From assembly GCA_949298795.1 (NCBI GenBank), contig CASFXV010000005.1:1-64000 (forward strand): a DNA stretch of 64,000 bases, given 5' to 3'. The position numbers were made by a program, and so were the translations under genes. The notes beneath the pieces are model-generated. The model worked only from the letters and a program-made list of their open reading frames with translations, was not told where the DNA came from and searched no databases. The stretch is from an uncultured bacterium. Its GTDB lineage: Bacteria; Elusimicrobiota; Elusimicrobia; Elusimicrobiales; Elusimicrobiaceae. Shown piece after piece: positions 25,801 through 56,208 of this stretch; position 1 is the stretch's first letter, and each line of letters opens with the position of its first letter.

Positions 25801-27300
25801 ATGAAAATAAAATTGGCGTCTTTTAACCCTTTAACCGCGGACATACGCGGCAATAAAGAGCATATCACCGCTTTGCTTAAGGCTCCCGCCCCCGCGGCGG
25901 ATTTGCTGGTCCTGCCGGAAGCGGCTTTGTGCGGCTGCCCCATGTTGGATTTGTTTGAAGATGAACGCCTGCTGAAAGAAACCCTTTCTTCTTTAAAAGA
26001 AATTGCCAAAGAAACCAAAGACACGGCCTGCGTGCTTGGCTTTCAGGATAAGCTGGGCAAAGATTTTGTATCCGCGGCGGCTTTTATTTATAAAGGAAAA
26101 ATTACCAAAATTTATGACAGTGAAGTAGTTTCTCTGGCCGGGAAAGATTTGCAAATTATATTGGGTGACTTGCAAGACGCCCCCGCCCAAGACGCCGATA
26201 TCATTATCCACCTTTCCGCCCGCCCGTACGAAAAAGGCAACGTGTCTGAACGTTTGGACGCGCTTAAAAAGTTTGCCAAAAAACGCGGAGTGCCGGTGCT
26301 GGAGTGCAATTTGTTAGGCGGGGGGGACGGTTTAATTTTTGACGGCCTTTGCGCCTGCGCTAATAAAAAAGGGGAGCTTACCCTGCTGGGGGAACTCTTC
26401 CGCGAGCGGGTAAACCTGTGGGACAGTGAGGAAAAGCCCCAGCCTCTTACCTATAAAGCGGACCCGCGCGGGGAAGTGTTGGACGCGCTTTCCTTTGGAT
26501 TGGGTGATTTTGTGCAAAAAGCCGGTTACAGCAAAGTCATTTTTGGTTTAAGCGGGGGGTTGGATTCCGCCGTAACGGCTGTACTGGCCGCCAGCGCATT
26601 AGGGGGGGAAAGCGTATATGCCGTTTCTCTTCCTTCTTATTGCACCAGCGATTTAAGCAAATCGTTAGCCGGCCAGCTGGCCCGCAATTTGGGCATTAAT
26701 TTAGAGGAAGTGGCTGTTAAACCCGTGCTTGACGGCATGAAAAACGCCGTGGGGCATATTGTTTCCCACTTAAAAGACGTAACGGAACAGAAACTCCACT
26801 CCCGCCTGCGCGCCAATATTCTGTTTACGCTGGGCGGAGAATACGGCGCCATGCCTATTTCTACCGATGATTTAAGCGAACTTTCCGTAGGCAGCTGCGT
26901 GCTGTACGGCGATACGGCCGGGCGTTTGCTGCCTATTGGGGACGTGTTTAAAACGGAACTGTACGACTTGGCCGCTTACATTAACAAGAACCGGGAAATT
27001 ATCCCCCAAGGGATTATAGACCGCGCGCCCACTTCGGAACTTCGCCCCAACCAAAAGGACGAGGACACCCTGCCCGCTTATCCGCTGCTGGATAAAATTA
27101 TCCCGCTGTACGTGGCCCAGGGCCTGGCCCCGCAGGAAATTGCCCGTAAGTGCAAAGCCCCGCTGGAAACGGTGACGGACGTGTGCCGCCGCATAGACTC
27201 GGCCGACTACAAACGCGCCCAAACCGCGCCTATTTTAAAAGTAACCCGCCGCCTGTTTACGGATTTACAGCGTCCCGTTATCAAGAAAATCAATCTTTAA
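25801..27300 (+). CDS. nadE: NAD+ synthetase with degenerate glutaminase domain
   Basis: Last step of NAD synthesis. The C-terminal synthetase domain (about 225-499) has the ATP-pyrophosphatase P-loop FGLSGGLDSAVTAV and the block SELSVGSCVLYGDTAGRLLPIGD in two parts, then PTSELRPNQKDEDTLPAYPLLD. The N-terminal nitrilase-like domain (about 1-220) keeps the Glu in LPEAALCG (E40). The ICED-type cysteine motif of glutamine-dependent enzymes is replaced by IILGDLQD (about 119-126), and the Lys region before it is shortened. The enzyme may therefore use free ammonia. I chose the ATG at 25801 because residues of the longer reading lie over the promoter. Confidence 0.92.
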   Translation: MKIKLASFNPLTADIRGNKEHITALLKAPAPAADLLVLPEAALCGCPMLDLFEDERLLKETLSSLKEIAKETKDTACVLGFQDKLGKDFVSAAAFIYKGKITKIYDSEVVSLAGKDLQIILGDLQDAPAQDADIIIHLSARPYEKGNVSERLDALKKFAKKRGVPVLECNLLGGGDGLIFDGLCACANKKGELTLLGELFRERVNLWDSEEKPQPLTYKADPRGEVLDALSFGLGDFVQKAGYSKVIFGLSGGLDSAVTAVLAASALGGESVYAVSLPSYCTSDLSKSLAGQLARNLGINLEEVAVKPVLDGMKNAVGHIVSHLKDVTEQKLHSRLRANILFTLGGEYGAMPISTDDLSELSVGSCVLYGDTAGRLLPIGDVFKTELYDLAAYINKNREIIPQGIIDRAPTSELRPNQKDEDTLPAYPLLDKIIPLYVAQGLAPQEIARKCKAPLETVTDVCRRIDSADYKRAQTAPILKVTRRLFTDLQRPVIKKINL

Positions 27301-27368
27301 TTTCAAACGCCGCAAACCGGGTAAGATGCCGCATTCTGCCCGGTTTTTTTGCGCGCTTGCGTATACTT

Positions 27369-28727
27369 ATGAAGAAATGGTTAAAAAATAAGCCGCTGCG
27401 CCGACAGCTTTTTAGTCTTACCAGCCCTATTTTTGTGGAAACGCTGCTGATTATGCTTTTAGGGGCTACGGACGTGGTGATGCTCAGCCGGTATTCCGAT
27501 GATACCGTAGCCGCCGTGGGGGTGGTGAACCAGCTGCTTAATTTGGTGTTTATTTTATACGGTATTACCACGCTGGGCACGTCCGTTTTGTGCGCACAGT
27601 ATTTGGGCGCCCGCCAAAAAAACAACGTAATGCAAACCATCGGCGTTTCCATTACGGTAAACCTAGTGGTGGGGCTGGCGGTCAGCGCGGGGCTTTATTT
27701 GCTGGCGCCGCAGTTACTGGGGCTGATGGGCCTGTCGGACGAATTAATCGGGCGCGGGAAAACGTATATGCAAATTGTGGCCGGGTTTTCTTTTATACAG
27801 GCGGTGGCGATGACGATGTCCTCCGTCTTAAGAAGCCATAATAAAGCCTATTATCCCATGTATGTTACGCTTCTGATGAATATCTTAAATATAGCTGGTA
27901 ATTACCTGCTTATTTTTGGCAAGTGGGGGTTCCCGGCCTTAGGCGCGCCGGGGGCGGCGGTGTCTACCGCCGTGTGCCGGTTTATTGCGCTGCTTCTTTT
28001 GGGGTATATTTTGTTTAAAAAAGTGGTGCCTCAGTTCACCCTCTCTTGCTTAAGGCCGTTCCCGTGGGATAAGGTAAAAAATTTAATGATTATCGGCCTT
28101 CCCGCGGCGGGGGAACAGGTGTCTTACAATTTGTCCCAGGTGGTGATTACCTATTTTTCCGTTCTGATTGGCACGGCGGCTTTAACCGCGCGTACCTATG
28201 CCATGAATATTGTGATGTTTTCTTACGTGTTTTCCATTGCGCTGGGGCAGGGGGCGGCCATATCCATTGGGCATTTGGTGGGGGCGGACAGGGACAACGC
28301 GGCCTTTTCGGTTGAAAAATATTCCATTAATTTGTCTGTTCTTATCAGCGTGCTTATTTCTATTTTAACCGCTTTAGTAGGTACGAATATTTTTAAAATG
28401 CTGTCTGCTAATCCGGACGTTATTAAAATAGGCGCGGTGGTATTATATATTGACATTGTGCTGGAAATAGGCCGGGCGGTGAATATCACTTCCGTCAATT
28501 CCCTCAATGCGGCGGGGGACGTGTTTTACCCGTTTATTACCGGCATTATTGTTATGTGGGGCGTTGCCACGCTGTGCGCGTACATACTGGGCGTGTGGTG
28601 GGGCTGGGGGCTGGCCGGCATATGGCTGGCGATGGCCCTTGATGAAAACATCCGCGCCGTAATTTTTGAGCGCCGCTGGAAAAGCCGCAAATGGCAAAGC
28701 AAAGCCTTTGCACGGCGCAAAGCTTAA
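27369..28727 (+). CDS. MATE-family efflux transporter
   Basis: Multidrug and toxin extrusion-type exporter of the inner membrane, using a Na+ or H+ gradient. The start at 27369 gives 452 residues with about 12 transmembrane segments and the duplicated MATE layout. Examples are SPIFVETLLIMLLGATDVVM at about 18-37 and IGLPAAGEQVSYNLSQVVI at about 240. A longer in-frame reading begins inside nadE and is not believable as a protein start. It lies 68 bp after nadE and probably shares its transcript. Substrate unknown. Confidence 0.9.
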   Translation: MKKWLKNKPLRRQLFSLTSPIFVETLLIMLLGATDVVMLSRYSDDTVAAVGVVNQLLNLVFILYGITTLGTSVLCAQYLGARQKNNVMQTIGVSITVNLVVGLAVSAGLYLLAPQLLGLMGLSDELIGRGKTYMQIVAGFSFIQAVAMTMSSVLRSHNKAYYPMYVTLLMNILNIAGNYLLIFGKWGFPALGAPGAAVSTAVCRFIALLLLGYILFKKVVPQFTLSCLRPFPWDKVKNLMIIGLPAAGEQVSYNLSQVVITYFSVLIGTAALTARTYAMNIVMFSYVFSIALGQGAAISIGHLVGADRDNAAFSVEKYSINLSVLISVLISILTALVGTNIFKMLSANPDVIKIGAVVLYIDIVLEIGRAVNITSVNSLNAAGDVFYPFITGIIVMWGVATLCAYILGVWWGWGLAGIWLAMALDENIRAVIFERRWKSRKWQSKAFARRKA

Positions 28728-28731
28728 AATT

Positions 28732-28740
28732 TGCTAAAAT
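28732..28740 (+). promoter_or_regulatory. Extended -10 promoter of the DUF177-rpmF-plsX operon (leaderless)
   Basis: TGC-TAAAAT ends exactly 6 nt before the ATG at 28747, and there is no Shine-Dalgarno element. Transcription is expected to start at the start codon. Confidence 0.55.
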
Positions 28741-28746
28741 ATAACC

Positions 28747-29235
28747 ATGAACGACTTTTACCGCGATTACGACGTACCGCAGGATTTAAAATTTAAAACC
28801 GCCGATATTTTGCGCATGGGCGGGCTGGAGTGCTCCGCCCAGTTAAGCCCCAAATATTTTGAAGGGGTGTTTACCGCCCCCAATAAAATAACGGCCGTTA
28901 CGGCGGAGATTAGTTTTTCCGTGGCGGACAAAAATATATTGGTGCGCGGGCGCGTATGGGGCAAGAGAAACGTTCAATGCGCACGCTGTTTAAAAATGGC
29001 CGCGCAGAATTTTGAAGAAGAATTTGTAGAAACATATAGCACGAAATCAGAAATAATTGATATAATGTTACTTGTGGAACAAACGCTGGCTTTGACCGAA
29101 GAAATACGCTTTCTTTGCAAGCCGGACTGCAAGGGGCTGTGCCCCGTATGCGGGCAAGACTTGAATGCCGCCCAGTGCGGATGCAAGCCGGAGCGTTTGT
29201 CGCCTTTTGCCGAATTAAAAGGTAAATTCAAGTAA
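28747..29235 (+). CDS. YceD/DUF177 family protein
   Basis: Conserved companion of ribosomal protein L32, associated in other bacteria with 23S rRNA processing. The 162 residues contain the paired-cysteine pattern of the family. CARCLK lies at about residue 78, and a C-terminal knuckle (CKPDCKGLCPVCG, then CGC) at about 120-140 is likely to bind zinc. It precedes rpmF by 42 bp, as in most bacteria. This gene opens the DUF177-rpmF-plsX-fabG-acpP-rnc run. Confidence 0.88.
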   Translation: MNDFYRDYDVPQDLKFKTADILRMGGLECSAQLSPKYFEGVFTAPNKITAVTAEISFSVADKNILVRGRVWGKRNVQCARCLKMAAQNFEEEFVETYSTKSEIIDIMLLVEQTLALTEEIRFLCKPDCKGLCPVCGQDLNAAQCGCKPERLSPFAELKGKFK

Positions 29236-29277
29236 GAATTAATTGATTTTTACTGATGTATACAGGAGTAATAAACA

Positions 29278-29490
29278 ATGCCGAATCCGAAGAAAAAACA
29301 CACTCGTTCCCGCCGGGATTTGAGAAGATCGCACAATTCTGTGATTGAAGTGGCCCAGTTGGTGGAATGCCCTAATTGCAAATCCGCCCGCTTGCCGCAC
29401 AATGTTTGCCCGAAATGCGGTTTTTATAAAGACCGGGTGGTTGTGGCTCCCAAAGCGGCCAAAACCGAAGAAAACACTGAAGCTAAATAA
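29278..29490 (+). CDS. rpmF: Ribosomal protein L32
   Basis: Large-subunit protein of 70 residues. It starts MPNPKKKHTRSRRDLRRSH and has the four-cysteine zinc ribbon (CPNCKSARLPHNVCPKC, about residues 31-47), so it is the zinc-binding form. The acidic C-terminal tail (KTEENTEAK) is slightly longer than usual. The RBS ACAGGAGTAATAAACA lies upstream. It sits between DUF177 and plsX, the classical position. Confidence 0.97.
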   Translation: MPNPKKKHTRSRRDLRRSHNSVIEVAQLVECPNCKSARLPHNVCPKCGFYKDRVVVAPKAAKTEENTEAK

Positions 29491-29499
29491 ATCTTTCTT

Positions 29500-30546
29500 A
29501 TGAAAATAGCCCTGGACGCCTTAGGCGGAGATTACGGCGCTAAACCCAATGTATTGGGCGCGTTGCAAGCGGCAAAAACCCTGGGTATTGAAGTAATACT
29601 GGTGGGGGATGAGGCCGTTATTAAGCGCGAGCTCAAAGAGCTGGGATATGCTTCTTCCCTGCCCGCCGGGATTTCTGTTGTACATGCTCCGGACACCATT
29701 GACATGGGTGCGGAACCCGCTAAAGAGTGCCGCAATAAAAAAGGAGCCAGCATTATTGTCTGCGCCGATTTGGTGCACAAAGGCGAGGCCGATGCGTTTG
29801 TTTCCGCCGGCCATTCCGGGGCGGCTATGGTAGCTTCCCTTTTCCGCATGGGACGCATTAAAGGGGTGGTCCGCCCCGCTATTGCAACGCCCATGCCCAC
29901 CTATAAAGGCGTAAGCCTGCTTTTAGACGGCGGCGCCAATGCGGACTGCAAACCCATTCATTTATTGCAGTTTGCGGTAATGGGTTCGGCCTATATGGAA
30001 AAGGTGTTTGATTTAAAATCCCCTTCCGTACGTATTCTTTCCATTGGGGAAGAAGAAACGAAGGGGAATTTTTTAGTTAAACACACCATACCCCATATGC
30101 GTGAAATTGGGGTAAATTTCCAGGGAACTATGGAAGGGCGCGATGTAAACACCGGCGAAACGGACGTGATTATTTGCGACGGTTTTGTGGGAAACATTGT
30201 GCTTAAAATGGCTGAAGGCTTGGCCAAAACCATGATTCACATGATTAAGCGGGAAGTTAAAAAACGTCCGCTTGCCATATTGGGGGCTTTGCTTGCGCGC
30301 GGCGCGTTCAAAGCGGTGAAAGACCATACCAACCCCGATTGTTACGGCGGCGCTCCTTTAGTAGGGGTAAACGGCGTGGCTATTATTTCCCACGGCAAAT
30401 CCAACGAAACGGCCATTTTTCACGCGCTTAAAACGGCCAAACGGTTGGTGGAAAAGAACTTTGTGGGGGATATTGCCGCCCGCATCGCTTCGTTGAAAGA
30501 CACTTTCTCCGCCATAGAAGCAGAAATGCAGGAGGAAGACAAATAA
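29500..30546 (+). CDS. plsX: Phosphate acyltransferase PlsX
   Basis: Converts acyl-ACP to acyl-phosphate for phospholipid synthesis at the membrane surface. The family features are IALDALGGDYGAKPN at residues 2-16, SAGHSGAAMVAS (about residue 102), LLLDGGANADCKP (about residue 145) and a C-terminal GGAPLVGVNGVAIISHGKS. The 348-residue length is typical. It starts 9 bp after rpmF and its stop overlaps the fabG ATG by one base (TAATG). Confidence 0.97.
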   Translation: MKIALDALGGDYGAKPNVLGALQAAKTLGIEVILVGDEAVIKRELKELGYASSLPAGISVVHAPDTIDMGAEPAKECRNKKGASIIVCADLVHKGEADAFVSAGHSGAAMVASLFRMGRIKGVVRPAIATPMPTYKGVSLLLDGGANADCKPIHLLQFAVMGSAYMEKVFDLKSPSVRILSIGEEETKGNFLVKHTIPHMREIGVNFQGTMEGRDVNTGETDVIICDGFVGNIVLKMAEGLAKTMIHMIKREVKKRPLAILGALLARGAFKAVKDHTNPDCYGGAPLVGVNGVAIISHGKSNETAIFHALKTAKRLVEKNFVGDIAARIASLKDTFSAIEAEMQEEDK

Positions 30547-31286
30547 TGGATTTTAAAGGAAAAAATATTATTGTTACCGGCGCCACCCGCGGTATTGGTT
30601 TAACTATTGCCGAAGCGTTTGCCAAGCAAGGGGCCAATGTGGCCATTTGCGGCACGCGTGAAGACGCCGTAAACAAAGCGGCGGAAAGTTTAGCCGCGTT
30701 TGGGGGAAAAGTGCTGGGCCGCGCGGTAAATATTTCCCGCGCCCAGGAATGCGACGCCTTTGTGGCGGACGTAGTAAAAGAATTTGGTTCTTTGGACGTG
30801 CTGGTAAACAATGCCGGTATTACCAAAGATAACTTAGCCGTGCGCATGACGGAAGAAGACTGGCGCGCCGTGATTGATGTAAATTTAACGGGAACGTTTT
30901 TTATGTCTAAGGCGGCGCTAAAGGTAATGTTTAAAAAACGCACGGGCAATGTAGTAAACATTTCCTCCGTAGTGGGGGAAATGGGCAATGCGGGCCAAGC
31001 CAATTACGTGGCCAGCAAAGCGGGTATTATCGGCCTTACCAAAACATTAGCTAAAGAGTTTGGTTCCCGCAATATCCGCGTGAACGCGGTGGCGCCGGGC
31101 TTTGTGCGTACGGCTATGACGGACGCACTGCCGCAGGACGTGAAAGAAAAAGCTCTGGAAAACGTACCGCTTAAAAGATTTGCAGAAACGCAAGACATTG
31201 CCAAGGCAGTGTTGTTCCTGGCAAGCGAAGATGCCTCTTATATAACGGGGCATATTCTGTCCGTCAACGGCGGACTTTATATTTAG
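30546..31286 (+). CDS. fabG: 3-oxoacyl-ACP reductase
   Basis: NADPH-dependent reductase of the fatty acid elongation cycle. Classical SDR of 246 residues. The cofactor motif is TGATRGIG (about residues 12-19) and NNAGIT is at about residue 87. Catalytic residues are in [21 protein letters not shown] (serine about 139, YVASK about 152-156). The ending [14 protein letters not shown] is typical. It is one base from plsX and followed by acpP, which supports assignment to fatty acid synthesis rather than to another SDR role. Confidence 0.95.
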
Positions 31287-31330
31287 TTGGGATAAGGGGA
31301 TACCCTTTTTTAAAAACATCGGAGGACAAA

Positions 31331-31573
31331 ATGTCTGAAAATATACAAGAAAGAGTCAAAAATATCATTGTTGAACAGTTGGGCGTAGAAGCCGACCAAG
31401 TAAAACCGGAAGCCCAGTTCGTCAACGACTTAGGCGCCGATTCTTTGGACACGGTGGAACTCATCATGGCCTTGGAAGAGGAATTTGACATCGAAATCCC
31501 TGACGAAAAAGCCGAAAAAATTAAAACCGTGGGCGAAGCCATTGAATACATTGAAGCCAACGCCAAAAAATAA
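31331..31573 (+). CDS. acpP: Acyl carrier protein
   Basis: Carrier of growing acyl chains. 80 residues, acidic, helical. The phosphopantetheine attachment serine is in [20 protein letters not shown] (Ser at about residue 38). The RBS GGAGGACAAA is strong, fitting its usual high expression. It lies 44 bp after fabG and 2 bp before rnc. Confidence 0.97.
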
Positions 31574-31575
31574 TC

Positions 31576-32241
31576 GTGTTTACGGAAATTGAGCGTATCA
31601 TTGGATACAGCTTCAAAAATAAAGAAGTTTTAAAGGAAGCACTCACTCATAAGTCTTTTGCCGGGGAACACCGAAGCGCCAAACATAACGAGCGCTTGGA
31701 GTTCCTGGGGGACAGCATATTAGGCGCGATTGTTGCAGATTACATCTACAACCAATGCCCTCATGTGGAAGAGGGAGTGCTTTCTAAAATTAAATCTAAC
31801 TTGGTTTCACGCCATAATCTTTATTTTTGGGGCAAAGAGATGGACTTGGGGTCTTTTATTGCCCTGGGTCACGGTGAAATTGCCACTGGCGGCCGTACGC
31901 GCGACAGTATTATCTCCAACGCGGTGGAAGCCGTAATCGGCGCCGTATACATAGACGGCGGATACCAAGCGGCCGAAGCGGTGGTTTTACCTTGGGTAAA
32001 AACCCAACATTTAACGCAGGACAGCGGGGATTTTAAAAGTTTATTGCAGGAATTTGTGCAAAAGCGCAGTAAACACACCCCGCAGTATGAAGTGATACAA
32101 ACCGTCGGCCCGGAACATGATAAAGTGTTTACCGTACGCGTCAGCTTAGACGGTAAGGAACTGGGCATAGGCAAGGGCCGCAATAAAAAACAGGCCGAGC
32201 AAAGCGCGGCTGAAAACGCGTTTGAGCACTTAAAAAAATAA
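31576..32241 (+). CDS. rnc: Ribonuclease III
   Basis: Double-strand-specific endonuclease for rRNA and mRNA processing. The catalytic domain has the signature HNERLEFLGDSILGAIVADYI (about residues 38-58, split here as NERLEFLGDS plus flanks) and a second metal site at NAVEAVIGAVYIDGG (about residue 115). A dsRNA-binding domain follows (about 150-221; GKGRNKKQAEQSAAENAFEH). The 221-residue length is typical. The chosen start is GTG at 31576, 2 bp after acpP; no ATG fits. Confidence 0.96.
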   Translation: MFTEIERIIGYSFKNKEVLKEALTHKSFAGEHRSAKHNERLEFLGDSILGAIVADYIYNQCPHVEEGVLSKIKSNLVSRHNLYFWGKEMDLGSFIALGHGEIATGGRTRDSIISNAVEAVIGAVYIDGGYQAAEAVVLPWVKTQHLTQDSGDFKSLLQEFVQKRSKHTPQYEVIQTVGPEHDKVFTVRVSLDGKELGIGKGRNKKQAEQSAAENAFEHLKK

Positions 32242-32245
32242 GTTT

Positions 32246-33586
32246 ATGGATAAAAAAACCACCTCCAAAATAACCGCCCCTATCGGGAAGATACAGGTCA
32301 AGGTGCAAGAGTCTTTGCTCCGCAAGCCCTTGGTATGGGTGGGTATTTTGGCGGTGGTTCCCATTGTCATCCTGTTTGCTTTTACGTTTAAAAGCGGGTT
32401 TACTCCTTCGGACGGGAACAGAAAGATAGAAAAAATTATCGTATCCAAGACCCCTATGGAAATGGCCGAAGAGGCCACCCAAGCTTTGCAGCGTAATGAC
32501 GTGCAAACCTTCTTTGATATTATAGACAAGGCAAAAGATTATAATTTGGTAAACAGCAAAGGGGACTCTATGCTCTTGGTGGCTGTTTCGTTAGGAAATT
32601 ATGACGCGGTGCTTCGTTTATTGTCTTTAGGGGCGGATGTAAATAAGCAAAATTCCTATACGCGTGACACCCCAATACTGCGCAGCTTATATACCAATCA
32701 TGATGACATTACCCGTTTGTTGGTAGCCTCTGACGCTAATTTGAATTTAGAAAACAACTACCGCCATTCACCCATATTTGTAGCCGTAGAACGCCAAAAA
32801 GGCGAATTTGTGGATTTGTTTATTACTTCCGGCGCGCAGGCGGGTATTGATTCCGATAATCTGTTCCGCTGGGTAACCAAACGCAACTTAATAGGCATAT
32901 TGGCTATGTTAAAAGGCGGGGTTGACCCCAATGTAAAAAACGAGCAGGGCAATACGCCGCTTATTATTGCCGCATCTTTGGGGGATGTGGAATCCGTACG
33001 TAATTTGCTGGCTTACCGGGCGGACCCCAATGCCGCCAATAAAGACGGTAACACCGCTTTAATTTATGCCGCCCGTTATAACCACCCGCAAATTATTTAT
33101 GAGCTGATGCGCCCTTACTCGCTGGTAGCCCCGGTGGACGTGAATATTCAAAACAAACAAGGGGAAACTGCTTTATATTGGGCTGCTTCCCGCGGATATG
33201 AAGAAGCGGTAAAGCGTTTGCTGGCGGCTAATACCAACCGTGACCTGAAAGATAAAAACGGGTTAACTGCGCGCGATATAGCGCAAAAAAAAGGCCGCCG
33301 CAACATTGTGGCGTTATTTGATATGGATCCTACGGCATTAAAGAATATGGTGGTGGAAATGGATAATGCCCGCATTGCCGCGCGCAAACGCCAGGAAGAA
33401 GCCGCCAAGGCCAAAGAACTTGCCGAAAAACAAAAGCAGGAGGCCGCCCAGGCCCAAGCCCAAGAGCAAGCCGGCTATATTGGCCGCCGGCGCCGCCAGG
33501 CCAAGAAAGAAATGGTGCAGCCCACTTCGGCGTTGGACCAGCAAGCCCCCACCCGCAACGCTTTTTCCCGCCGAAAACGCCAATAA
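32246..33586 (+). CDS. Membrane-anchored ankyrin-repeat protein
   Basis: 446 residues. One transmembrane helix near the N terminus (WVGILAVVPIVILFAFTF, about residues 30-47) is followed by a mostly continuous run of ankyrin repeats (about 85-365). Clear repeat cores are NEQGNTPLIIAASLGDVESV, KDGNTALIYAARYNHPQII and NKQGETALYWAASRGYEEAV. The C-terminal 75 residues are Lys/Gln/Ala-rich, probably coiled coil, ending in basic RRRR/KRR clusters. Ankyrin repeats bind proteins; no partner is evident. It begins 4 bp after rnc without a clear RBS, so translation may depend on coupling. Confidence 0.88.
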   Translation: MDKKTTSKITAPIGKIQVKVQESLLRKPLVWVGILAVVPIVILFAFTFKSGFTPSDGNRKIEKIIVSKTPMEMAEEATQALQRNDVQTFFDIIDKAKDYNLVNSKGDSMLLVAVSLGNYDAVLRLLSLGADVNKQNSYTRDTPILRSLYTNHDDITRLLVASDANLNLENNYRHSPIFVAVERQKGEFVDLFITSGAQAGIDSDNLFRWVTKRNLIGILAMLKGGVDPNVKNEQGNTPLIIAASLGDVESVRNLLAYRADPNAANKDGNTALIYAARYNHPQIIYELMRPYSLVAPVDVNIQNKQGETALYWAASRGYEEAVKRLLAANTNRDLKDKNGLTARDIAQKKGRRNIVALFDMDPTALKNMVVEMDNARIAARKRQEEAAKAKELAEKQKQEAAQAQAQEQAGYIGRRRRQAKKEMVQPTSALDQQAPTRNAFSRRKRQ

Positions 33587-33589
33587 GGT

Positions 33590-33800
33590 ATTCAAACAGT
33601 TTTAAATCCGCCCCAAACAAATAGTTGGGGCGGATTTTTTAATACTTTACCCCTTAGGATATAAGCCTGAGTGTTTTTCGTAAACAGCCCGTACGCTAAA
33701 GCCACAATATAAGCCAGATAAAGAATAATAACATTCAAGACGGAAAACAAATAAATGGCCCATAGTATTTTATAAAGCGTTAAAAATACGCGGTAGGGCG
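33590..33800 (-). pseudogene. Possible remnant of a small membrane protein
   Basis: On the minus strand an open frame of about 70 codons, bounded by stops, encodes a hydrophobic segment (LWAIYLFSVLNVIILYLAYI) followed by AYGLFTKNTQAYILRGK. It looks protein-like, but has no ATG, no RBS and overlaps the 33605-33640 terminator. It may be a decayed gene or chance. Confidence 0.25.
33605..33640 (+). terminator. Terminator after the ankyrin gene
   Basis: ATCCGCCCCAA pairs with TTGGGGCGGAT, followed by T6. It ends the DUF177-to-ankyrin transcription unit. Confidence 0.85.
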
Positions 33801-33831
33801 TTTAAAAGGCCTCTTGCTCACGAGCTATATG

Positions 33832-33901
33832 TTTTAACCCGTTCCAGCCCGGAAGGTGCGCGCTGTATTTGGTTCCTTTCCGCGTGCACCTTGGGGAGTT
33901 T
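33832..33901 (+). pseudogene. Fossil fragment of aspS
   Basis: Aligns with the aspS gene at 37521-37591 in about 62 of 71 columns with one single-base gap. In translation it reads TRSSPEGAR, a frame shift, then YLVPFRVHLGEF, against [22 protein letters not shown] in AspRS. It is far too short to be functional. The rest of the 416-bp gap around it holds only terminators and a doubtful minus-strand remnant. Confidence 0.8.
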
Positions 33902-33954
33902 AGTATCTATAAAAAGCGTTCATAAACTGCGGGAAATTTATTTAAAACAGGCAA

Positions 33955-33990
33955 TAAAAAACCGCACGCCTAAACAGCGTGCGGTTTTTT
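33955..33990 (-). terminator. Terminator after asnS
   Basis: ACCGCACGC / GCGTGCGGT stem flanked by A6 and T6, immediately past the asnS stop; it could work in both directions. Confidence 0.85.
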
Positions 33991-34002
33991 ATAACAGAAG
34001 GG

Positions 34003-35301
34003 TTACGGGTGGATTTTATCCATCATGCGCGGGAACGGAATGGTTTCACGCACGTGCTGCAAACCGCAAATCCAGCGTACCATGCGTTCAATCCCCATGC
34101 CAAAGCCGGAATGAGGCACGCTGCCGTATCGGCGCAAATCCAAATACCAATCGTAGCCTTGCGGGTCCAGCCCTTGTTCTTTTATACGGGCCAGCAGGGC
34201 GTCATAATCGGCCTCTCTTTCACTTCCGCCAATGATTTCCCCGGCGCCTTCCGGCCCAATTACGTCCACCGCCAGCACCACTTTGGGGTTTTTGGGGTCG
34301 CGTTTCATATAAAAGGCTTTAATGGCGGCCGGGTAACGGTGAATCATAATCGGGGTGTCGTAATCTTCGCCCAGCAGGGTTTCTTCGTCGCCGCCGATAT
34401 CGCCGCCCCAAGGGGTGTTGTTGCCTTTTTTGTGCAGGATTTCAATGGCGTCCGTATAATCAATGCGGGGGAATTTCTTTTCCACCGTGGCTTGCAGTTT
34501 GGTAGTGTCGCGCTCCAAGGTTTTTAAGTCGTCAGCGCGGTTTTTAAGCACTTGGCCCACAATGTATTTAATAAAGTCTTCAGCCAAGTCCATATTATCG
34601 TCTAAATCATTGTAAGCCACTTCCGGTTCCACCATCCAAAATTCAGTCAAATGGCGGCGGGTTTTGCTCTTTTCGGCGCGGAAAGTGGGGCCAAAGCAAT
34701 AGGTGCGGCCCAAAGCCATGGCGGAGGCTTCCCCATACAGCTGCCCGCTTTGGGAGAGGAAAGCTTTTTCTCCAAAATAATCGGTTTCAAACAAGGTGCT
34801 GGTGCCTTCACAGGCGGCAGGGGTTAAAATAGGGGAATCGGACAGGATAAAACCGTTTTTGTGTAAATACTCACGGATAGCAAAAATGATTTCATCGCGT
34901 ATGCGCAAAATAGCCGTTTGCTTGGCGGAGCGCAGCCACAAGTGGCGGTAATGCATTAAAAATTCCGGTCCGTGCTCTTTGGGGGAGATGGGGTAGTCCT
35001 TCGCCATTTGCAGCACTTCCAAATTTTTTACGCCCAGTTCATAACCCAGGGGGGAGCGTTTGTCTTCCCGCACCGTGCCGGTAACCAGGATAGAGGACTC
35101 TTGGGTTACTTTATCGCCCAATTCAAATTGTTCAGGGGAAACTTCGCCTTTAAACATAACGCATTGGATAATGCCGCTGCCGTCACGCAGCTGTAAAAAA
35201 TGTAATTTGCCGCTGGAGCGCTTGTTATACAGCCAGCCCTTTAAAGTGATTTCTTGGCCTAGATATTGGCCCACGTCTTTGACGCGAATTTTGCTAGACA
35301 T
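34003..35301 (-). CDS. asnS: Asparaginyl-tRNA synthetase
   Basis: Class IIb synthetase charging tRNA-Asn. The N-terminal OB-fold anticodon domain (about 1-105; [20 protein letters not shown]) is followed by the catalytic core. Motif 2 lies in [20 protein letters not shown] (about residue 208) and motif 3 in [16 protein letters not shown] (about residue 400). The [15 protein letters not shown] segment and GGDIGGDEE loop point to AsnRS over AspRS, which is encoded separately at 37025. A dedicated AsnRS means Asn-tRNA need not come from the amidotransferase route. The RBS GAGGAAGA precedes the ATG. Confidence 0.93.
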
Positions 35302-35457
35302 ATTCTTCCTCTTACAATGAAATAAAATACTTATTATATTTTAGCTTTTTGAGGGGGAAAATAAAACCGCCCCATTTACAGGGAAAAAAGAAACGATGAT
35401 TTTTATTCTTTCCCGCCGATGGGCACAGCAAAAAATTTTTATTTTTAGGTTTGTATA

Positions 35458-35466
35458 TGCTATAAT
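35458..35466 (+). promoter_or_regulatory. Extended -10 promoter of tRNA-Ala
   Basis: TGC-TATAAT about 47 nt upstream of the tRNA; the -35 region is weak (TTTATT with 17-bp spacing), as expected for an extended -10 promoter. Confidence 0.6.
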
Positions 35467-35512
35467 AAATATGTTCTTAGAAGTTCCCGCGCTAAGAAAT
35501 TCAAAAATTTTT

Positions 35513-35588
35513 GGGCGTGTAGCTCAGCTGGGAGAGCGCCTCGTTCGCAACGAGGAGGTCGTCGGTTCGATCCCGATCACGTCCACCA
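35513..35588 (+). tRNA. tRNA-Ala (anticodon CGC)
   Basis: A 76-nt cloverleaf including an encoded CCA end. The acceptor stem GGGCGTG pairs with CACGTCC (one G-U). The D arm is GCTC-AGCTGGGA-GAGC, the anticodon stem CCTCG/CGAGG encloses loop TTCGCAA (anticodon CGC, reads GCG), and the T arm is GTCGG-TTCGATC-CCGAT. The acceptor G3-U70 wobble is the identity element recognised by alanyl-tRNA synthetase. Confidence 0.97.
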
Positions 35589-35596
35589 TTTTAAAC

Positions 35597-35620
35597 ACCA
35601 CGCTTAGGCGTGGTTTTTTA
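35597..35620 (+). terminator. Terminator after tRNA-Ala
   Basis: ACCACGC / GCGTGGT stem with a short loop, followed by T6, just past the CCA end. Confidence 0.8.
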
Positions 35621-35781
35621 TTTGCTAAGAGGCGCGGGAACGCTTCCGAAGGGGCGTTTTTAAGGCATATACTTTGCTTTGTGTTTTGTTGGGGTTGCTA
35701 GCCAAAAGCTTTCCGGTAAACAGAGGGCCGCTTGCTTAATCCGGGTTTTGACGGAGATATTTCTATTCATTCCTCTTAAAA

Positions 35782-35790
35782 TGCTAAAAT
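35782..35790 (+). promoter_or_regulatory. Extended -10 promoter of hisS-aspS (near-leaderless)
   Basis: TGC-TAAAAT ends 8 nt before the hisS ATG; no Shine-Dalgarno element is present. Confidence 0.55.
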
Positions 35791-35798
35791 AAAACTAT

Positions 35799-37028
35799 AT
35801 GGCTAAATTAGTACGCGGGTTTAGAGATATTTTTGAACCCCAATCCCAACATTTTACTGAACTGGAAAACTGCGCCCGCGGCGTATTTTCCTTATATGGG
35901 TTTGGCGAACTTCGCCTGCCTACCGTGGAACTGAAAGAATTATTCGTTAAATCCACCGGCGAAACGACGGACATCGTCCAAAAAGAAATGTACGCGTTTG
36001 AGGACGCCGGCCACCGCCAACTGGCAATCCGCCCGGAAGGCACCCCCGGCGTGGTGCGCGCCTATTTGGAAAATAACTTTGTGCAGGCCGCGCCCGTACA
36101 GAAATTTTATTATATCGGCAATATGTTCCGTGCGGAACGCCCTCAGGCGGGCCGCTACCGTGAGTTTGAGCAAATCGGCGCGGAATACATCGGCAATTCC
36201 GCTCCGGCGGCGGACGCGGAAGTGATTCTAATGTTAAAAGACATCGTGTCACGTTTCGGCGCAAAAAACTATTGCGTTAAAATTAACAGTCTGGGGTGTG
36301 ACAAATGCCGCCCGCTTTACCGCCAGGCTTTAATTGATTTTTTATCTCAAGAAAAAGACACTTTATGTGAAAATTGCCAAACCCGCTTGGAGAAAAATCC
36401 GCTTCGCGTTTTAGACTGCAAGATAGACGGCGCCCGCTTTGCCGGACGCGTGCCCACCATGCAGCTCTGCCCGGAGTGCCAAGCCCATTTTGACGAGGTG
36501 CAAGCCCTTTTAAAAGGCAAGATAGATTTTGTGGTGGACCCTATGCTTGTGCGCGGGCTGGATTATTATTCCCGCACCGTGTTTGAGTTTCAAGCGGGGG
36601 ACGCTTCCCAAAACGCCATAGCGGCCGGCGGGCGTTATGATACGCTGGTTAAAAATATGGGCGGCCCCGCCACGCCGGCTATCGGCTGGGCGATGGGGGC
36701 TGAACGCGTGATAGCCGCCCGGGGGGAAGTAACCCGCCCGCAGCAAAAAAGCGTGTGTGTCGTGTCCTTAGACAAGCAATGCAACGAAACGGCTTTTAAT
36801 ATCATGCAGTCTTTGCGTGGGGCGGGCATCCGCACCGAAGGCGGCCTTTTTGATAAAAACATCAAAGGCCAAATGAAACAGGCCGACCGCTGCCACGCTG
36901 CTTATGCGGTTATTTTAGGGACGGACGAACTGGCCCAGCGCCAAGCCACTTTTAAAGACTTGGCTACCGGGGAACAGAAAAAGATTTCATTTGACGTATT
37001 AACCCAAGAGGTAAAAAAAGTATTATGA
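35799..37028 (+). CDS. hisS: Histidyl-tRNA synthetase
   Basis: Class II synthetase charging tRNA-His. The 409 residues start with RGFRDIFEPQ (the motif 1 region). Motif 2 is in YYIGNMFRAERPQAGRYREF with EQIGAEYIG (about residues 104-130). The HisA motif LVRGLDYYSRTVFEF is at about residue 249, followed by AAGGRYDTLVKNMGG. The C-terminal anticodon domain is complete. The stop overlaps the aspS ATG (ATGA), so both are co-transcribed and coupled, a common arrangement. Confidence 0.96.
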   Translation: MAKLVRGFRDIFEPQSQHFTELENCARGVFSLYGFGELRLPTVELKELFVKSTGETTDIVQKEMYAFEDAGHRQLAIRPEGTPGVVRAYLENNFVQAAPVQKFYYIGNMFRAERPQAGRYREFEQIGAEYIGNSAPAADAEVILMLKDIVSRFGAKNYCVKINSLGCDKCRPLYRQALIDFLSQEKDTLCENCQTRLEKNPLRVLDCKIDGARFAGRVPTMQLCPECQAHFDEVQALLKGKIDFVVDPMLVRGLDYYSRTVFEFQAGDASQNAIAAGGRYDTLVKNMGGPATPAIGWAMGAERVIAARGEVTRPQQKSVCVVSLDKQCNETAFNIMQSLRGAGIRTEGGLFDKNIKGQMKQADRCHAAYAVILGTDELAQRQATFKDLATGEQKKISFDVLTQEVKKVL

Positions 37029-38770
37029 AAAGAACCAATTATTGTGGGGAGGTAACCTCCAAATTTTTAGGCACGCGCCAAACCCTTTGCGGGTGGGTGA
37101 ACAGCTACCGCGACCACGGCGGCGTACTGTTTATAGACCTGCGTGACCGCAGCGGCATTTGCCAAGTGGTGGTGGAGCCTTCCAAACCGTTTTTTAACGA
37201 AGCGTCAACCGTACGCAACGAATATGTCATAGAAGTTACCGGCACGGTAACCAAACGTATTGAGGGCGCCGTAAACAAAAATATGAAAACCGGGGAAATT
37301 GAACTGGTGGCGGAAGAATTTAAAATTTTAAACACGTCTATTCCGCTTCCTTTTGATGTGGAAAAATCCCGCTCGGTAACGGAAGAAACCCGCTTAAAAT
37401 ACCGCTACCTGGATTTGCGCAACCCCAAAATGTACGCCAATTTATTGTTGCGCCACCGCTTGTCCCAGGCGGCCCGGCGGTATTTGGACGGGCAGGGCTT
37501 TTTGGAAGTAGAAACCCCTATTTTAACCCGTTCCACGCCGGAAGGCGCGCGCGATTATTTGGTTCCTTCCCGCGTACACCATGGGGAGTTTTACGCCCTT
37601 CCCCAAAGCCCGCAAATGTTTAAGCAAACGTTAATGGCCAGCGGGATTGACCGCTACTTCCAACTGGCGCGCTGTTTCCGTGATGAAGACTTGCGCGCGG
37701 ACCGCCAGCCCGAACATACGCAAATTGATATGGAAATGTCCTTCGTTACCATTAATGATATTCACGAGGTGGTGGAAGGCTTAATGAAAACGCTTTTTGC
37801 CACCGCGGGGGAAGATATTTCCGTTCCGTTCCCAAAAATTCCTTATAAAGAAGCCATGAGCAAATACGGCTCCGACAAGCCGGACTTGCGCTATGATTTG
37901 GAAATGAAAGACGTTTCCGGCGTGTTTAAGAATACTTCTTTTAAAGTGTTTGCTGACGTGTTGGGAAAAGGGGGGGAAGTTCTCTCTCTTGTATCCCAAG
38001 GCGGGGCCGCCACGCCGCGCGCGCAGGTGGATAAGCTGGTGGATTTGGCTAAAAAGAACGGCGCCAAAGGCTTGATATGGTTCAAATACAAAGAAGGCAA
38101 GCTGGACAGCCCTTCCGCTAAATTCTTTACCGAACAGGAACTGAAAGATTTAATCACCCAAAGCGGCGCCCAAGAGGGAGATTTAATTTTACTGGGGAGC
38201 GACCAGTTTGCCCCATTGTGCACTTTTATGGGGGCCTTGCGCAAGGAATTGGTTAAAAATTTAACCCCTAAATGCAAATGGGCTTTTGCCTGGATAACGG
38301 ATTTCCCGCTTTTGGAATACGTGCCGGAAGAAGACCGCTGGGACGCGGCCCACAACCCTTTTACGGCCGCCCACGAAGAAGATTTGGACAAGCTGGAAAC
38401 GGACCCCGGCTCCGTGCGTTCCTATCAGTTTGATTTGGTGCTCAACGGCAACGAGCTGGCCTCCGGCTCCGTGCGCAACTGCCGCCGGGACGTGCAGGAA
38501 CGTATTTTAGCCTTGATGAAACACTCTAAAGAAGAGTCCGCACGCCGTTTTGGCATGCTGTTAAACGCGTTGGAAGCGGGCGCGCCTCCCCACGGCGGCA
38601 TTGGCCTGGGGCTGGACCGCATTACCGCGCTTTTGGCGGGGGAAGAGTCTATCCGCGAGGTTATCGCTTTCCCCAAAACGGCGCAGGCCGTCTGCCCGCT
38701 GACGGATTCCCCCAACGTGGTGGACGATATCCAGTTAAAAGAGTTGGCTTTAGCTATTGTAAAAGAATAG
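37025..38770 (+). CDS. aspS: Aspartyl-tRNA synthetase (bacterial type)
   Basis: Class IIb synthetase charging tRNA-Asp. The 581-residue length and the inserted GAD domain (about 290-410) mark the bacterial type. The N-terminal OB fold (LCGWVNSYRDHGGVLFIDLRD) is followed by LTRSTPEGARDYLVPSRVH (about residue 167), motif 2 in FQLARCFRDEDLRADRQPEH (about 217-236) and motif 3 in GGIGLGLDRITALLAG (about 527-542). Because AsnRS is also encoded, this enzyme can be a discriminating one. A 70-bp degenerate copy of codons around 166-189 lies 3.7 kb upstream. Confidence 0.96.
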   Translation: MKRTNYCGEVTSKFLGTRQTLCGWVNSYRDHGGVLFIDLRDRSGICQVVVEPSKPFFNEASTVRNEYVIEVTGTVTKRIEGAVNKNMKTGEIELVAEEFKILNTSIPLPFDVEKSRSVTEETRLKYRYLDLRNPKMYANLLLRHRLSQAARRYLDGQGFLEVETPILTRSTPEGARDYLVPSRVHHGEFYALPQSPQMFKQTLMASGIDRYFQLARCFRDEDLRADRQPEHTQIDMEMSFVTINDIHEVVEGLMKTLFATAGEDISVPFPKIPYKEAMSKYGSDKPDLRYDLEMKDVSGVFKNTSFKVFADVLGKGGEVLSLVSQGGAATPRAQVDKLVDLAKKNGAKGLIWFKYKEGKLDSPSAKFFTEQELKDLITQSGAQEGDLILLGSDQFAPLCTFMGALRKELVKNLTPKCKWAFAWITDFPLLEYVPEEDRWDAAHNPFTAAHEEDLDKLETDPGSVRSYQFDLVLNGNELASGSVRNCRRDVQERILALMKHSKEESARRFGMLLNALEAGAPPHGGIGLGLDRITALLAGEESIREVIAFPKTAQAVCPLTDSPNVVDDIQLKELALAIVKE

Positions 38771-38775
38771 TAAAC

Positions 38776-38803
38776 ACCCCGGGCTTGCCCGGGGTTATTT
38801 TTA
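38776..38803 (+). terminator. Terminator after hisS-aspS
   Basis: CCCCGGGC-TT-GCCCGGGG stem followed by TTATTTTT. Confidence 0.8.
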
Positions 38804-38820
38804 CACGCCCTCGTGTTTTA

Positions 38821-38829
38821 TGGCATAAT
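38821..38829 (+). promoter_or_regulatory. Extended -10 promoter of the 38839 lipoprotein gene
   Basis: TGG-CATAAT ends 9 nt before the ATG, with no Shine-Dalgarno element; near-leaderless start expected. Confidence 0.4.
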
Positions 38830-38838
38830 AAAAATAGT

Positions 38839-39864
38839 ATGAAGATAACGCGTTTTTGCATTCCTGTTTTACTTTTTGCGGCGGCCTGTTCTCCTTCCGG
38901 CCAGGGGGACGACTTGGCTTCCGCCCGCCCCACGCGTGAAGCCAATGTGGCGCGTTATTTGGCTAAAGCCAAAGAAAACCAACGCCTGGCGCAAGAACGC
39001 CGCCAACCCATCAACGCCCAAAACCCGGTTAACGTGGCGCAGGTTAAAACCCAGGCGGGGGAGGAGTTTTTCCCTGCCTTGCCGGCGGAAATGGCCGCGG
39101 TGAAAGCCAATTTAGAAAAACGCGTGCGCGATGAATACGGTGAGGCGGCCGCCGCCCAAGCGGGCGCTATTATTTTGGCCTATCACAAAGACGCGCAAGC
39201 CGCCGCCAAACAAGCCCAAAACCCGCAAGAAATGGCCGCCGCTTTACGCCGGTTAGATGAACAATACCAGCAAAAATTAAACGCTTTTTTAGATGAACAA
39301 GTTGCGCAGAAGTGGGTTGTCCCCACGCAAAAGCAGTTGGATGTAGCCCGCGCGGAAATGGAAAATAAAAACAAAGAGATGTTGAAAAATATAGGGGAGT
39401 TATACGGTCCTGTCTGCGCGCAAAAAGCGGAGCCAGTATTAAAAACGGCGGTTGAAAACTATATGCAGGTGTTTGCCACCGCCAAAGACGGGCAGGAGAT
39501 GCAGCAGCGCAGCCGGGCGGTTATGCAGCAGTCAGACGCGCGGCTGGCCGCCGTTGTGGCCCAATACGGGGACCCGAAAGGCCCCATGAGCGAAGAAGAC
39601 CTGCAGGCCATGCGCGCGGAAATGATTGCCGCCTATCAAGCAGTGGAAAGCGAATTTGAGCGTTTATACGGGCAAGAAGCCGTGGCGCAAATACGCCCGT
39701 TTTTTAATCAAATTTTAAAAAATGCCGCCGCCGTAGGCGCGGCGGATACGCGCCTAAGCTATAAGCGTGAAGAGCTGGAGCGTTTAAATAAAATTTATCA
39801 AAAGCAGTTGGCCGATATGCAAAAACGTTTTAACGAACGTATTAAACAAAGAGCAAAGAGATAA
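38839..39864 (+). CDS. Predicted coiled-coil lipoprotein
   Basis: No known family recognised. The 341-residue product starts with a lipoprotein signal (MKITRFCIPVLLFAAACSPS) with lipobox AAAC and Cys at about residue 17. The mature part is Ala/Gln/Glu/Lys-rich and almost wholly helical. It holds loosely repeated units around YGEAAAAQAG, YGPVCAQKAEP and YGQEAVAQIRP, separated by about 80-90 residues. The ATG at 38839 is chosen because the longer reading starts inside the aspS terminator. The next gene encodes a larger protein of the same style, so the two probably act together in the envelope. Confidence 0.75.
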   Translation: MKITRFCIPVLLFAAACSPSGQGDDLASARPTREANVARYLAKAKENQRLAQERRQPINAQNPVNVAQVKTQAGEEFFPALPAEMAAVKANLEKRVRDEYGEAAAAQAGAIILAYHKDAQAAAKQAQNPQEMAAALRRLDEQYQQKLNAFLDEQVAQKWVVPTQKQLDVARAEMENKNKEMLKNIGELYGPVCAQKAEPVLKTAVENYMQVFATAKDGQEMQQRSRAVMQQSDARLAAVVAQYGDPKGPMSEEDLQAMRAEMIAAYQAVESEFERLYGQEAVAQIRPFFNQILKNAAAVGAADTRLSYKREELERLNKIYQKQLADMQKRFNERIKQRAKR

Positions 39865-39915
39865 AAAATAAATCCCGCGGTGTTTGGATACGGGGTTTTA
39901 CCATACACTTAGATT

Positions 39916-41745
39916 ATGAAAAACAAAATATTAATTTACTTAGCCGTTTTTATTATTCTTTTATTGTGCGCGGGAGTGTTGGCCTTGGTGGCCCCGTCTT
40001 CTTCCGGACGGGCGGAACCGCCGGTGCATGAAGGGTATTCTTCCGCAGGGACGGACCTGGCATATTCCGCCCGCCCCCAACATACATTGGCTGATTTAAA
40101 AGACCAGGAACTTTTGGGATTGCCGCCGTCCGGGCCCGGGGTTACCGTCAGCGGGCGCGCCCCAGTGTTGGAAGCCGCTTTGCCAGCGGGGCAGAATGGA
40201 AATCTGCCCTCGGTATCCGCTTATTCACCAGCGCGCGGGCCCAAGCCAGAGGCCCGTTTAAAAGGAAGGCTTCCGGGCGGGTCGGCCTCCGCTTCTACGG
40301 CTGGGAAAGGGGGTGCTTCTTCTGCTATGGAATTGGGTCCCCGCAGCGCCGCCCAGAGCGGGGCGGACTTTCGGGAGAGTGACTCCTATAAAAAAGCAAA
40401 TGAAACGCTTTTGTCTTATTTAGCCCCCAAGGACCGCCAAAAACAAGAAGCGCTTATGCGGGAAATGGATACTTTAAGCAGCAACTTAAGCAACGCCATC
40501 GCGCGCGCCATGGCCCCCAAATCCAAACGCCAAGCCATGTTGGAAAAATACACCCGCCGCTCCGGCCCGGAGGCTTTAAAAGGGAACAATAACCCGTTTG
40601 CGGACGTGGTAAGCCAAATCGCTTCCCAAAAATCTTCTGTGGTGCAAAGTATGACGGATAGTTTTGGTTCTGCCGCCGGGCAACGGGCGGGCAAAATTAT
40701 GGACAGCTTTCAAAAAGAAGCTTCCGCCGTGGCTAACCGTGCCGATTTAACCCAACAGCAAAAAGGCGATGAAATACGCAAATTAAATAATAAATACCAA
40801 CGCCAGTTAAACGAGTTGACGCGTGCCGGCTCCTTGCAGAAAATGGAAGCGGAACAACGCCAGGAAAATGAAGACTACTTGGCTTTGCTCCGCGCTAAAT
40901 TTAACCCGGAAACGGAATCCGCCGCCCGTGAAATATTGGATAATTTCACCACGCAAAAAATGCAGCTTATCCAGCAGGGGCTTCCGGCGCCGGAGTTCCA
41001 GGAAAAATATTTAAAACTCAAACAAGAGGCCGATGACAAAGTAAAAGAAGCCGTTTTTAAAGCCAACCCTACCCGTATGGACACGGCGGAAGTGTTGGAA
41101 GACATCAACCGCCAAACCGCCAATAAGCAAATGGAACGTGACAAAGCCGCCGTGGAGGCCGGCTTAAAGCAGGACCAAACCGTTTATGTTTCCGAAGAAG
41201 TAAAACAAAAATACCGCGACAATTTTGCCGCCCAGCGCGCCAAAGATGCAAAAGCCGTGGCGCAGGCTTACGGCCCGGAAGTGGCGGCCCAGTTTGAGCA
41301 AATTGATAAAGAGTACGAAAAAGAAGTACTGGAAAATTTTGACTCTCAGGAAGGCCGTTTGTCCGTAAATGAAAAGAACCAAGCCGCCGTGGAAAAACGA
41401 AACCAGGCAGTGCAGGCCTTGCTGGAAAAAGCCCAAAATGACCCGGCTTTTAAACAAAAACAGGCCGCGCAAATGGAAACGGAAATAAAGAAACAAAACG
41501 AACAAACCCTTTCCCAAATCATGCAAAGCGAAGAAATGCGCCAATGGCCTTCTTCCGCAAAGAAAGAGTATGAAAAGCAGGCCCGCGCCATTTTGGACGA
41601 TATGGCCCAACAGCTTGCCCAGGCGGCCGTTAACGCCAAGGACCAAAAATCCTACGAGCAGGACGCCCAGCGCATCCAGCAGGCGGCCCAGCAGAAACTG
41701 CAAAATATCCAGGTGTCTGTTCCTCAGCCGCAGCCGGCGCAGTAA
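39916..41745 (+). CDS. Large membrane-anchored Ala/Gln/Lys-rich coiled-coil protein
   Basis: No family recognised. 609 residues with an N-terminal transmembrane anchor (ILIYLAVFIILLLCAGVLAL, about 4-23) and a Ser/Gly/Pro-rich linker (about 30-150). A long helical region (about 155-600) is rich in Gln, Lys, Glu and Ala. YGPEVAAQFEQIDKEYEK (about residue 453) resembles the repeat unit of the preceding lipoprotein, so the two genes are probably distant paralogues. TACACT ends 6 nt before the ATG, compatible with a leaderless start. A structural envelope role is a guess. Confidence 0.7.
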   Translation: MKNKILIYLAVFIILLLCAGVLALVAPSSSGRAEPPVHEGYSSAGTDLAYSARPQHTLADLKDQELLGLPPSGPGVTVSGRAPVLEAALPAGQNGNLPSVSAYSPARGPKPEARLKGRLPGGSASASTAGKGGASSAMELGPRSAAQSGADFRESDSYKKANETLLSYLAPKDRQKQEALMREMDTLSSNLSNAIARAMAPKSKRQAMLEKYTRRSGPEALKGNNNPFADVVSQIASQKSSVVQSMTDSFGSAAGQRAGKIMDSFQKEASAVANRADLTQQQKGDEIRKLNNKYQRQLNELTRAGSLQKMEAEQRQENEDYLALLRAKFNPETESAAREILDNFTTQKMQLIQQGLPAPEFQEKYLKLKQEADDKVKEAVFKANPTRMDTAEVLEDINRQTANKQMERDKAAVEAGLKQDQTVYVSEEVKQKYRDNFAAQRAKDAKAVAQAYGPEVAAQFEQIDKEYEKEVLENFDSQEGRLSVNEKNQAAVEKRNQAVQALLEKAQNDPAFKQKQAAQMETEIKKQNEQTLSQIMQSEEMRQWPSSAKKEYEKQARAILDDMAQQLAQAAVNAKDQKSYEQDAQRIQQAAQQKLQNIQVSVPQPQPAQ

Positions 41746-41764
41746 ACAATACCCAAATTATTTT

Positions 41765-41792
41765 AAAACCCCGCTTCTTGCGGGGTTTTTTA
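41765..41792 (+). terminator. Terminator after the coiled-coil pair
   Basis: AACCCCGC / GCGGGGTT stem followed by T6. The 280 bp from here to the next gene contain no recognisable gene, only this and the opposing terminator. Confidence 0.85.
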
Positions 41793-41971
41793 TGGGGTTC
41801 ACTTACGCGCCGGAACTATTTTCCTGTATGTAATCCGGCGCGAAAATAAGCGCGAACCCCGCCCTAAAGGGGGCTCCCTTTTTTGTGTAAGCCAACAAAT
41901 GGCGGCGGCCTGTGTGTTGCGGGAAATTTTTCTCTGTCGTTTTTAGCAGGGCAGGGCGTATAGCAAAATAA

Positions 41972-42002
41972 AAAGGGCCTGTTGTAAAACAGACCCTAAA
42001 AA
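41972..42002 (-). terminator. Terminator after the SpoIID gene
   Basis: AGGGTCTG / CAGGCCCT imperfect stem (one mismatch), followed on the minus strand by TTTTTATTTT. Confidence 0.6.
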
Positions 42003-42024
42003 TACCGGCTTGCCGCGGTGGATT

Positions 42025-44124: not shown

Positions 44125-44187
44125 ATCCGCCCCGTGAATGAAATTTTGTAAGATATAACGTATATTATTTTTATATTTTACAAAACT

Positions 44188-45081: not shown

Positions 45082-45083
45082 TA

Positions 45084-45089
45084 TATAAT
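45084..45089 (+). promoter_or_regulatory. -10 box of the 45096 gene (leaderless)
   Basis: Consensus TATAAT ends 6 nt before the ATG; no Shine-Dalgarno element. Confidence 0.45.
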
Positions 45090-45095
45090 ATACAT

Positions 45096-45464: not shown

Positions 45465-45488
45465 TACTTCTTTTTAGTACGCAAAATA

Positions 45489-45521
45489 GAACCCCCCGGT
45501 TTAACTAAACCGAGGGGTTCA
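45489..45521. terminator. Hairpin, terminator-like on the minus strand
   Basis: AACCCCCCGGTTTA pairs with TAAACCGAGGGGTT. The T-rich run (TATTTT) follows on the minus strand, not clearly on the plus, so it may once have ended a minus-strand gene occupying 45569-46066. Confidence 0.6.
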
Positions 45522-45568
45522 TCTTGACGTCTCCATTATTACCTTCCTTCTTTTTTGGTTAGCGCCTC

Positions 45569-46066: not shown

Positions 46067-46116
46067 ATTTTATTTTATGCGGCGTAGATTTGTATACTCC
46101 CCGACGTATAAAATAA

Positions 46117-46146
46117 TAAAAAGCCCCGGATTAAGCCCGGGGCGAT
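46117..46146 (-). terminator. Terminator after the 46158-46766 gene
   Basis: GCCCCGGG-type stem pairing across TTAA, followed on the minus strand by TTTTTATTATTTTA. Confidence 0.75.
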
Positions 46147-46157
46147 TGTAGGAGTTT

Positions 46158-50621: not shown

Positions 50622-50631
50622 TTTTTACCAA

Positions 50632-56191: not shown

Positions 56192-56208
56192 AGGCGTTTT
56201 CACCCTAT

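Follow-up and report, generated by a model that had tools for sequence, protein, structure and literature searches.

The window analysed here, a stretch of 64,000 nucleotides of Elusimicrobiaceae DNA (genome G000), contains a spacer between an ankyrin-repeat gene on the plus strand and asnS on the minus strand, in which a short piece resembling part of aspS is found. The earlier note that drew attention to this piece had placed it in a gap upstream of asnS. As asnS is read from the minus strand (34003-35301), the gap lies 3' of that gene, between two convergent genes. The features concerned are the following, by position in the window:

32246..33586, plus strand: ankyrin-repeat gene, left of the spacer (gene list, profile search).
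33606..33641, plus strand: hairpin and T-run behind the ankyrin gene, putative terminator (read by eye; absent from the scan's list).
33698..33756, plus strand: MORN-repeat gene scrap, the older of the two, with its homologue at L033:1716-1792 in G048 (left end from the G000-G048 alignment; direct match 33718-33756).
33811..33831, plus strand: 21 bp adjoining the aspS match on its left; nothing in the G048 spacer corresponds to them (G000-G048 alignment).
33832..33901, plus strand: aspS fossil, 70 bp (alignment, 62/71 columns, E 1.5e-17 genome-wide).
33954..33992, minus strand: terminator-like hairpin behind asnS, nearly symmetrical (terminator/promoter scan).
34003..35301, minus strand: asnS, right of the spacer and convergent (gene list, profile search).
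37025..38770, plus strand: intact aspS, aspartate--tRNA ligase (NF001750, 801 bits against a cut-off of 443).
37521..37591, plus strand: segment of the intact aspS matching the fossil (alignment, DNA search).

An Rfam search of 33000-36000 gave nothing over the spacer at the gathering score, its sub-threshold matches falling mostly on two terminator hairpins. The ankyrin gene is more diverged between G000 and G048, the nearest relative found, than its neighbours: its DNA identity is 91%, with 56 of 195 fourfold sites differing, against 95-97% identity for rnc, asnS, hisS and aspS. Between asnS and hisS, the tRNA-Ala(CGC) gene is followed in relatives by 2-4 tandem units of ~100-125 bp, counting the real gene's own end (L107:13253-13571, L108:13210-13436, L041:8662-9099 and L036:9010-9297). 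Each unit combines the 3' half of the tRNA-Ala with a hairpin resembling a terminator and a stretch like GAGGCGC...GCTTCCGAAGTGAGCG. In the window's genome, a single such unit was seen by eye (35513-35700), and ARAGORN reported one tRNA per tRNA-Ala locus, tandem units notwithstanding.

Pairwise alignment of 33832-33901 with aspS (37521-37591) gave 62 identical columns out of 71, with 8 substitutions and one deleted base, and thus bore out the match as it had been described from the letters alone. The matched stretch corresponds to bases 497-567 of the gene, that is, codons 166-189. The piece lies on the same strand as aspS, its start 3,689 bp from the matching segment, in agreement with the orientation and the 3.7-kb distance given previously. 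We then searched the whole genome (1,562,427 bases, or 1.56 Mb, in 37 contigs) at the DNA level with the 401-bp spacer 33600-34000 as the query (E ≤ 0.001). This gave three matches in all, to the spacer itself, to aspS (E 1.5e-17) and, through its inverted repeat, to the asnS terminator. aspS was the only synthetase gene among them, and within this genome the piece was matched by aspS alone, so that neither a better synthetase match nor a repeated element with many copies, which the earlier note had named as arguments against its reading, was found. Among 50,697 phage records (plasmids being outside this search), nothing matched 33640-33960. Neither the whole-genome search nor alignment with the G048 spacer revealed homology beyond the 70 bp. 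The left junction of the piece carries 21 bp that could not be traced to any source, 33809-33831 having no other occurrence in the genome at up to 3 mismatches. Since the piece and aspS are 87% identical, an assembly error is unlikely. Alongside its significant homology to an intact gene, the piece has lost the open frame through the one-base deletion, and its second-position changes speak for an absence of coding constraint; it thus has both properties expected of a gene fossil.

To place the piece, we used a tree of 22 full aspS genes (without support values; Jukes-Cantor model, 71 columns). It attaches at the node joining G000 and G048 (lnL -669.4, against -675.9 for the next branch, 6.4 log units better), the three branches adjoining this node being equal (-669.44 to -669.47; next -675.89). 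At position 37576 the piece has G, as do G048 and 18 of the 22 aspS genes, A being found in G000, G046, G035 and G057; at position 37531 it has T, like G000, G005, G064 and G046, C being found in G048 and some distant genomes. This placement, together with the states at the two positions, indicates that the piece is native, derived from the lineage's own aspS, and about as old as the split between G000 and G048. Its private changes comprise 7 substitutions (4 at second and 3 at third codon positions) and the deletion, and its fitted pendant branch is ~0.10, to be set against the 48/212 and 10/97 sites at which the left and right spacer flanks differ between G000 and G048. In the matched segment, the 22 aspS genes vary at 2 first, 0 second and 23 third positions, and all four second-position changes of the piece fall on sites invariant in 22/22 genes, from which it follows that the piece decayed without coding constraint.

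Gene order around the spacer is identical in G048, whose spacer can be aligned with that of G000 on both sides of the aspS piece but does not contain it, the bases from ~33811 to 33901 being extra in G000. In G005, G064 and G046 the gene order is also kept; their spacers do not align with that of G000 and contain no aspS match, and as a result the presence or absence of the piece is not polarised by a third genome. A DNA search of the genus with 33800-33960 gave a match in 31 of 66 genomes, the other 35 being too divergent at aspS. Each of the 29 matching genomes besides G000 and G048 gave one match, located by its coordinates inside aspS, and none of these 29 genomes with a visible aspS holds the longer remnant that the earlier note had suggested looking for in relatives. 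Protein searches for second aspS copies are insensitive to scraps this short, the fossil not being among the matches listed even in G000.

A second scrap in the same spacer is a new observation of this analysis. In both G048 and G000, the ankyrin-asnS spacer holds a ~77-bp decayed scrap of a MORN-repeat gene. A query of 601 bp covering the G048 spacer and its surroundings matched, elsewhere in the G048 genome, a MORN-repeat gene located on a different contig (E 5.5e-6), its identity being given by MORN_2 (101 bits against a cut-off of 29.6). The whole G048 spacer scored 81 against this gene (maximum of 52 in 200 shuffles), and the core of the scrap, L033:1716-1792, scored 72 (maximum of 42 in 500 shuffles). 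For G000, the score of 33718-33756 was 46, with shuffles of 33675-33756 reaching at most 40 in 500 and shuffles of the longer 33651-33811 reaching 48, above that score, once in 200. Toward the aspS piece the MORN match is not significant in either genome, 69/500 and 484/500 shuffles reaching the scores of the right-hand parts. We therefore dropped the idea of a MORN fragment enclosing the aspS piece, only the core (here 33718-33756) being significant; the scrap ends ~75 bp left of the aspS piece. An intact MORN gene was found in 8/8 genomes searched, in G000 at C15:17701-18369, and the donor is thus outside the 89-kb contig of the window. Comparison of the two spacers indicates that the MORN scrap dates back to the ancestor that G000 and G048 share. 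Two other readings were abandoned: that of a 29-bp match at G005:C128 as chance, once the G048 search had shown it to be the MORN gene, and that of a minus-strand frame in the spacer as coding for a membrane protein, after the plus-strand MORN homology was found.

A survey of 173 crude intergenic regions (25,613 bases) against the same 364 kb (the window plus 300 kb, 23% of the genome) gave 287 matches. Among those listed, the aspS piece is the clearest scrap of a housekeeping gene and not the sole intergenic-to-coding match. One 67-bp match of this kind (E 0.002) joins L131:13593-13658 to window positions 13324-13384; L137:19941-19999 was rejected as an edge artefact due to a neighbouring paralogous gene. 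Most other matches listed joined one spacer to another, or came from short hairpins or from repeats on contig C6. On that contig, the spacer stretch L142:7920-8099 matches an ORF at L141:12726-12905 over 181 bp (81% identity, E 3.6e-41) and is possibly another gene scrap or a decayed paralog. Also on this contig is an array that repeats every 66 bp, with stretches of 33-36 bp that are identical (L141:14900-17470), a candidate for either a CRISPR array or 22-residue protein repeats. When 27001-46900 (19.9 kb) was compared with the whole genome, a search in which the aspS fossil was absorbed by the self match, four non-self matches were obtained, two of them covering the tRNA gene, a third within the 3' portion of aspS (70%, E 1.5e-5) and the last, 42 bp long, following the gene at 39916-41745. 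For G046 and G005, the spacers were searched against their own genomes and G000 and matched only themselves or gave short terminator-like matches. A family of ~35-bp inverted repeats common to many spacers (window 8698-8733, 41758-41796, 50622-50664 and 56205-56246) probably represents similar terminators. Contigs C5 (window 2-98) and C7 (L143:1-97) begin with 97 identical bases, perhaps an assembly break in a repeat.

As far as the sequence allows one to judge, the piece bears no good sign of a function. Transcription running on past asnS would yield a transcript antisense to the aspS mRNA over 70 nt, the minus strand of the piece being 87% complementary to it, or a hairpin might act alone, a role that we regard as extremely improbable. 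The longest perfect stem is 11 pairs in the piece against 8 in aspS, a length reached by 2.1% of 4,000 random decays (a comparison made post hoc), and for 33811-33910 the minus-strand fold is more stable than those of its shuffles (z -2.1, 8/200), this being one of four pieces folded, with z of -1.8, -1.1 and -0.3 for the others. However, the piece lies behind the asnS terminator, the scan found no promoter-like site in 33500-34100, and G048 lacks the piece. Moreover, the fold energy is that of random decay, 24% (plus strand) and 46% (minus strand) of 20,000 mutated copies being at least as stable. The stem length and z score are recorded here without a claim of a hairpin under selection being built on them.

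We consider it probable, at roughly 60%, that the piece is a non-functional scrap of the lineage's own aspS captured into the spacer at about the time of the split from G048 or later. Some 70 bp of aspS, perhaps along with the 21 bp at the left junction, would have been copied or captured into a spacer that already held the MORN scrap, presumably in one step, by illegitimate repair (as filler) or by polymerase template switching. The piece would then have decayed freely, apparently without any effect, and such captures would be tolerated owing to the location of the spacer between two terminators. Because the MORN scrap is unrelated and its donor distant, short gene scraps entered this spacer at least twice. 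The presence of two unrelated scraps in one spacer fits small illegitimate captures better than the remains of a whole second aspS. The earlier note had seen here the last trace of a second aspS copy: a fossil of aspS it is, but the G048 spacer without the piece, the MORN scrap and the lack of a longer remnant in the 29 relatives with a visible aspS argue against its being what is left of a full copy.

An origin by duplication and deletion would involve a tandem duplication of ~3.7 kb, with ends at aspS base 567 and in the spacer, whose extra copy was lost except for its last 70 aspS bases. It predicts both the shared orientation and the 3,689-bp distance, and the asnS-hisS stretch does have tandem partial repeats at the tRNA-Ala gene in relatives. 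Two illegitimate events would be needed, however, as homologous loss would leave nothing, and the MORN scrap and the 21 bp would stay unexplained. The nearness of the aspS donor is also partly a selection effect, since the first reading saw donors within 64 kb only. We thus hold this origin to be unlikely. A capture of DNA that entered from another strain, conspecific or near, as debris of transformation, would account for scraps of two unrelated genes without a shared donor site; it leaves the same sequence as a copy from the own chromosome, which cannot be told apart from it, and we regard it as quite improbable. Compatible with any of these readings and concerning only the timing, the piece may have been present in the common ancestor and later deleted in G048, a course that is possible although we do not favor it. 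The equal fit of the piece to the three branches at the G000/G048 node allows for it. Between G000 and G048, fourfold sites differ at 56/195 in the ankyrin gene, 15/88 in rnc, 23/185 in hisS and 26/263 in aspS, and the spacer flanks differ at 48/212 sites on the left and 10/97 on the right. If the ankyrin rate is neutral, a piece that predates the split would be expected to carry more than 7 changes in 70, which argues weakly against ancestral presence, whereas the rates of rnc, hisS and aspS do not require the piece to be younger. The junctions of the aspS event are too old to be read.

Intergenic gene remnants, or pseudogene fragments, occur in bacterial genomes. Like them, the aspS piece is short, frameshifted, unconstrained and homologous to an intact gene elsewhere; unlike them, it is internal to its gene, spans 70 bp and has an intact housekeeping parent, as befits a partial duplicate rather than the decay of an inactivated gene. 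Among the papers listed in a literature search, none treats such a scrap, those on the group itself being general Elusimicrobia papers. Short template-switch events are described, in the portions of the papers available, at short range in great apes, in RNA hairpins and in E. coli quasipalindromes (PMC7954356, PMC8794818 and PMC7202029). As in those cases, the event here would have copied a small stretch off a different template and left bases of untraced origin at a junction, and the longer stem of the piece might hint at the perfecting of an inverted repeat. In contrast to the cases described there, the aspS event lies 3.7 kb from its template and has junctions made unreadable by age.

Taken alone, the piece is ordinary genome debris of little importance. 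A broader idea would be that short copies of unrelated chromosomal genes have landed in this spacer repeatedly, and that this gut lineage has a process placing coding scraps of 70-80 bp in gaps sheltered from transcription; at present it is improbable. The aspS piece nonetheless provides a placed and roughly dated example of a spacer between convergent genes collecting unrelated gene pieces, and with the MORN and aspS scraps lying near each other, one could count from existing genomes how often captures of this kind occur in Elusimicrobiales.
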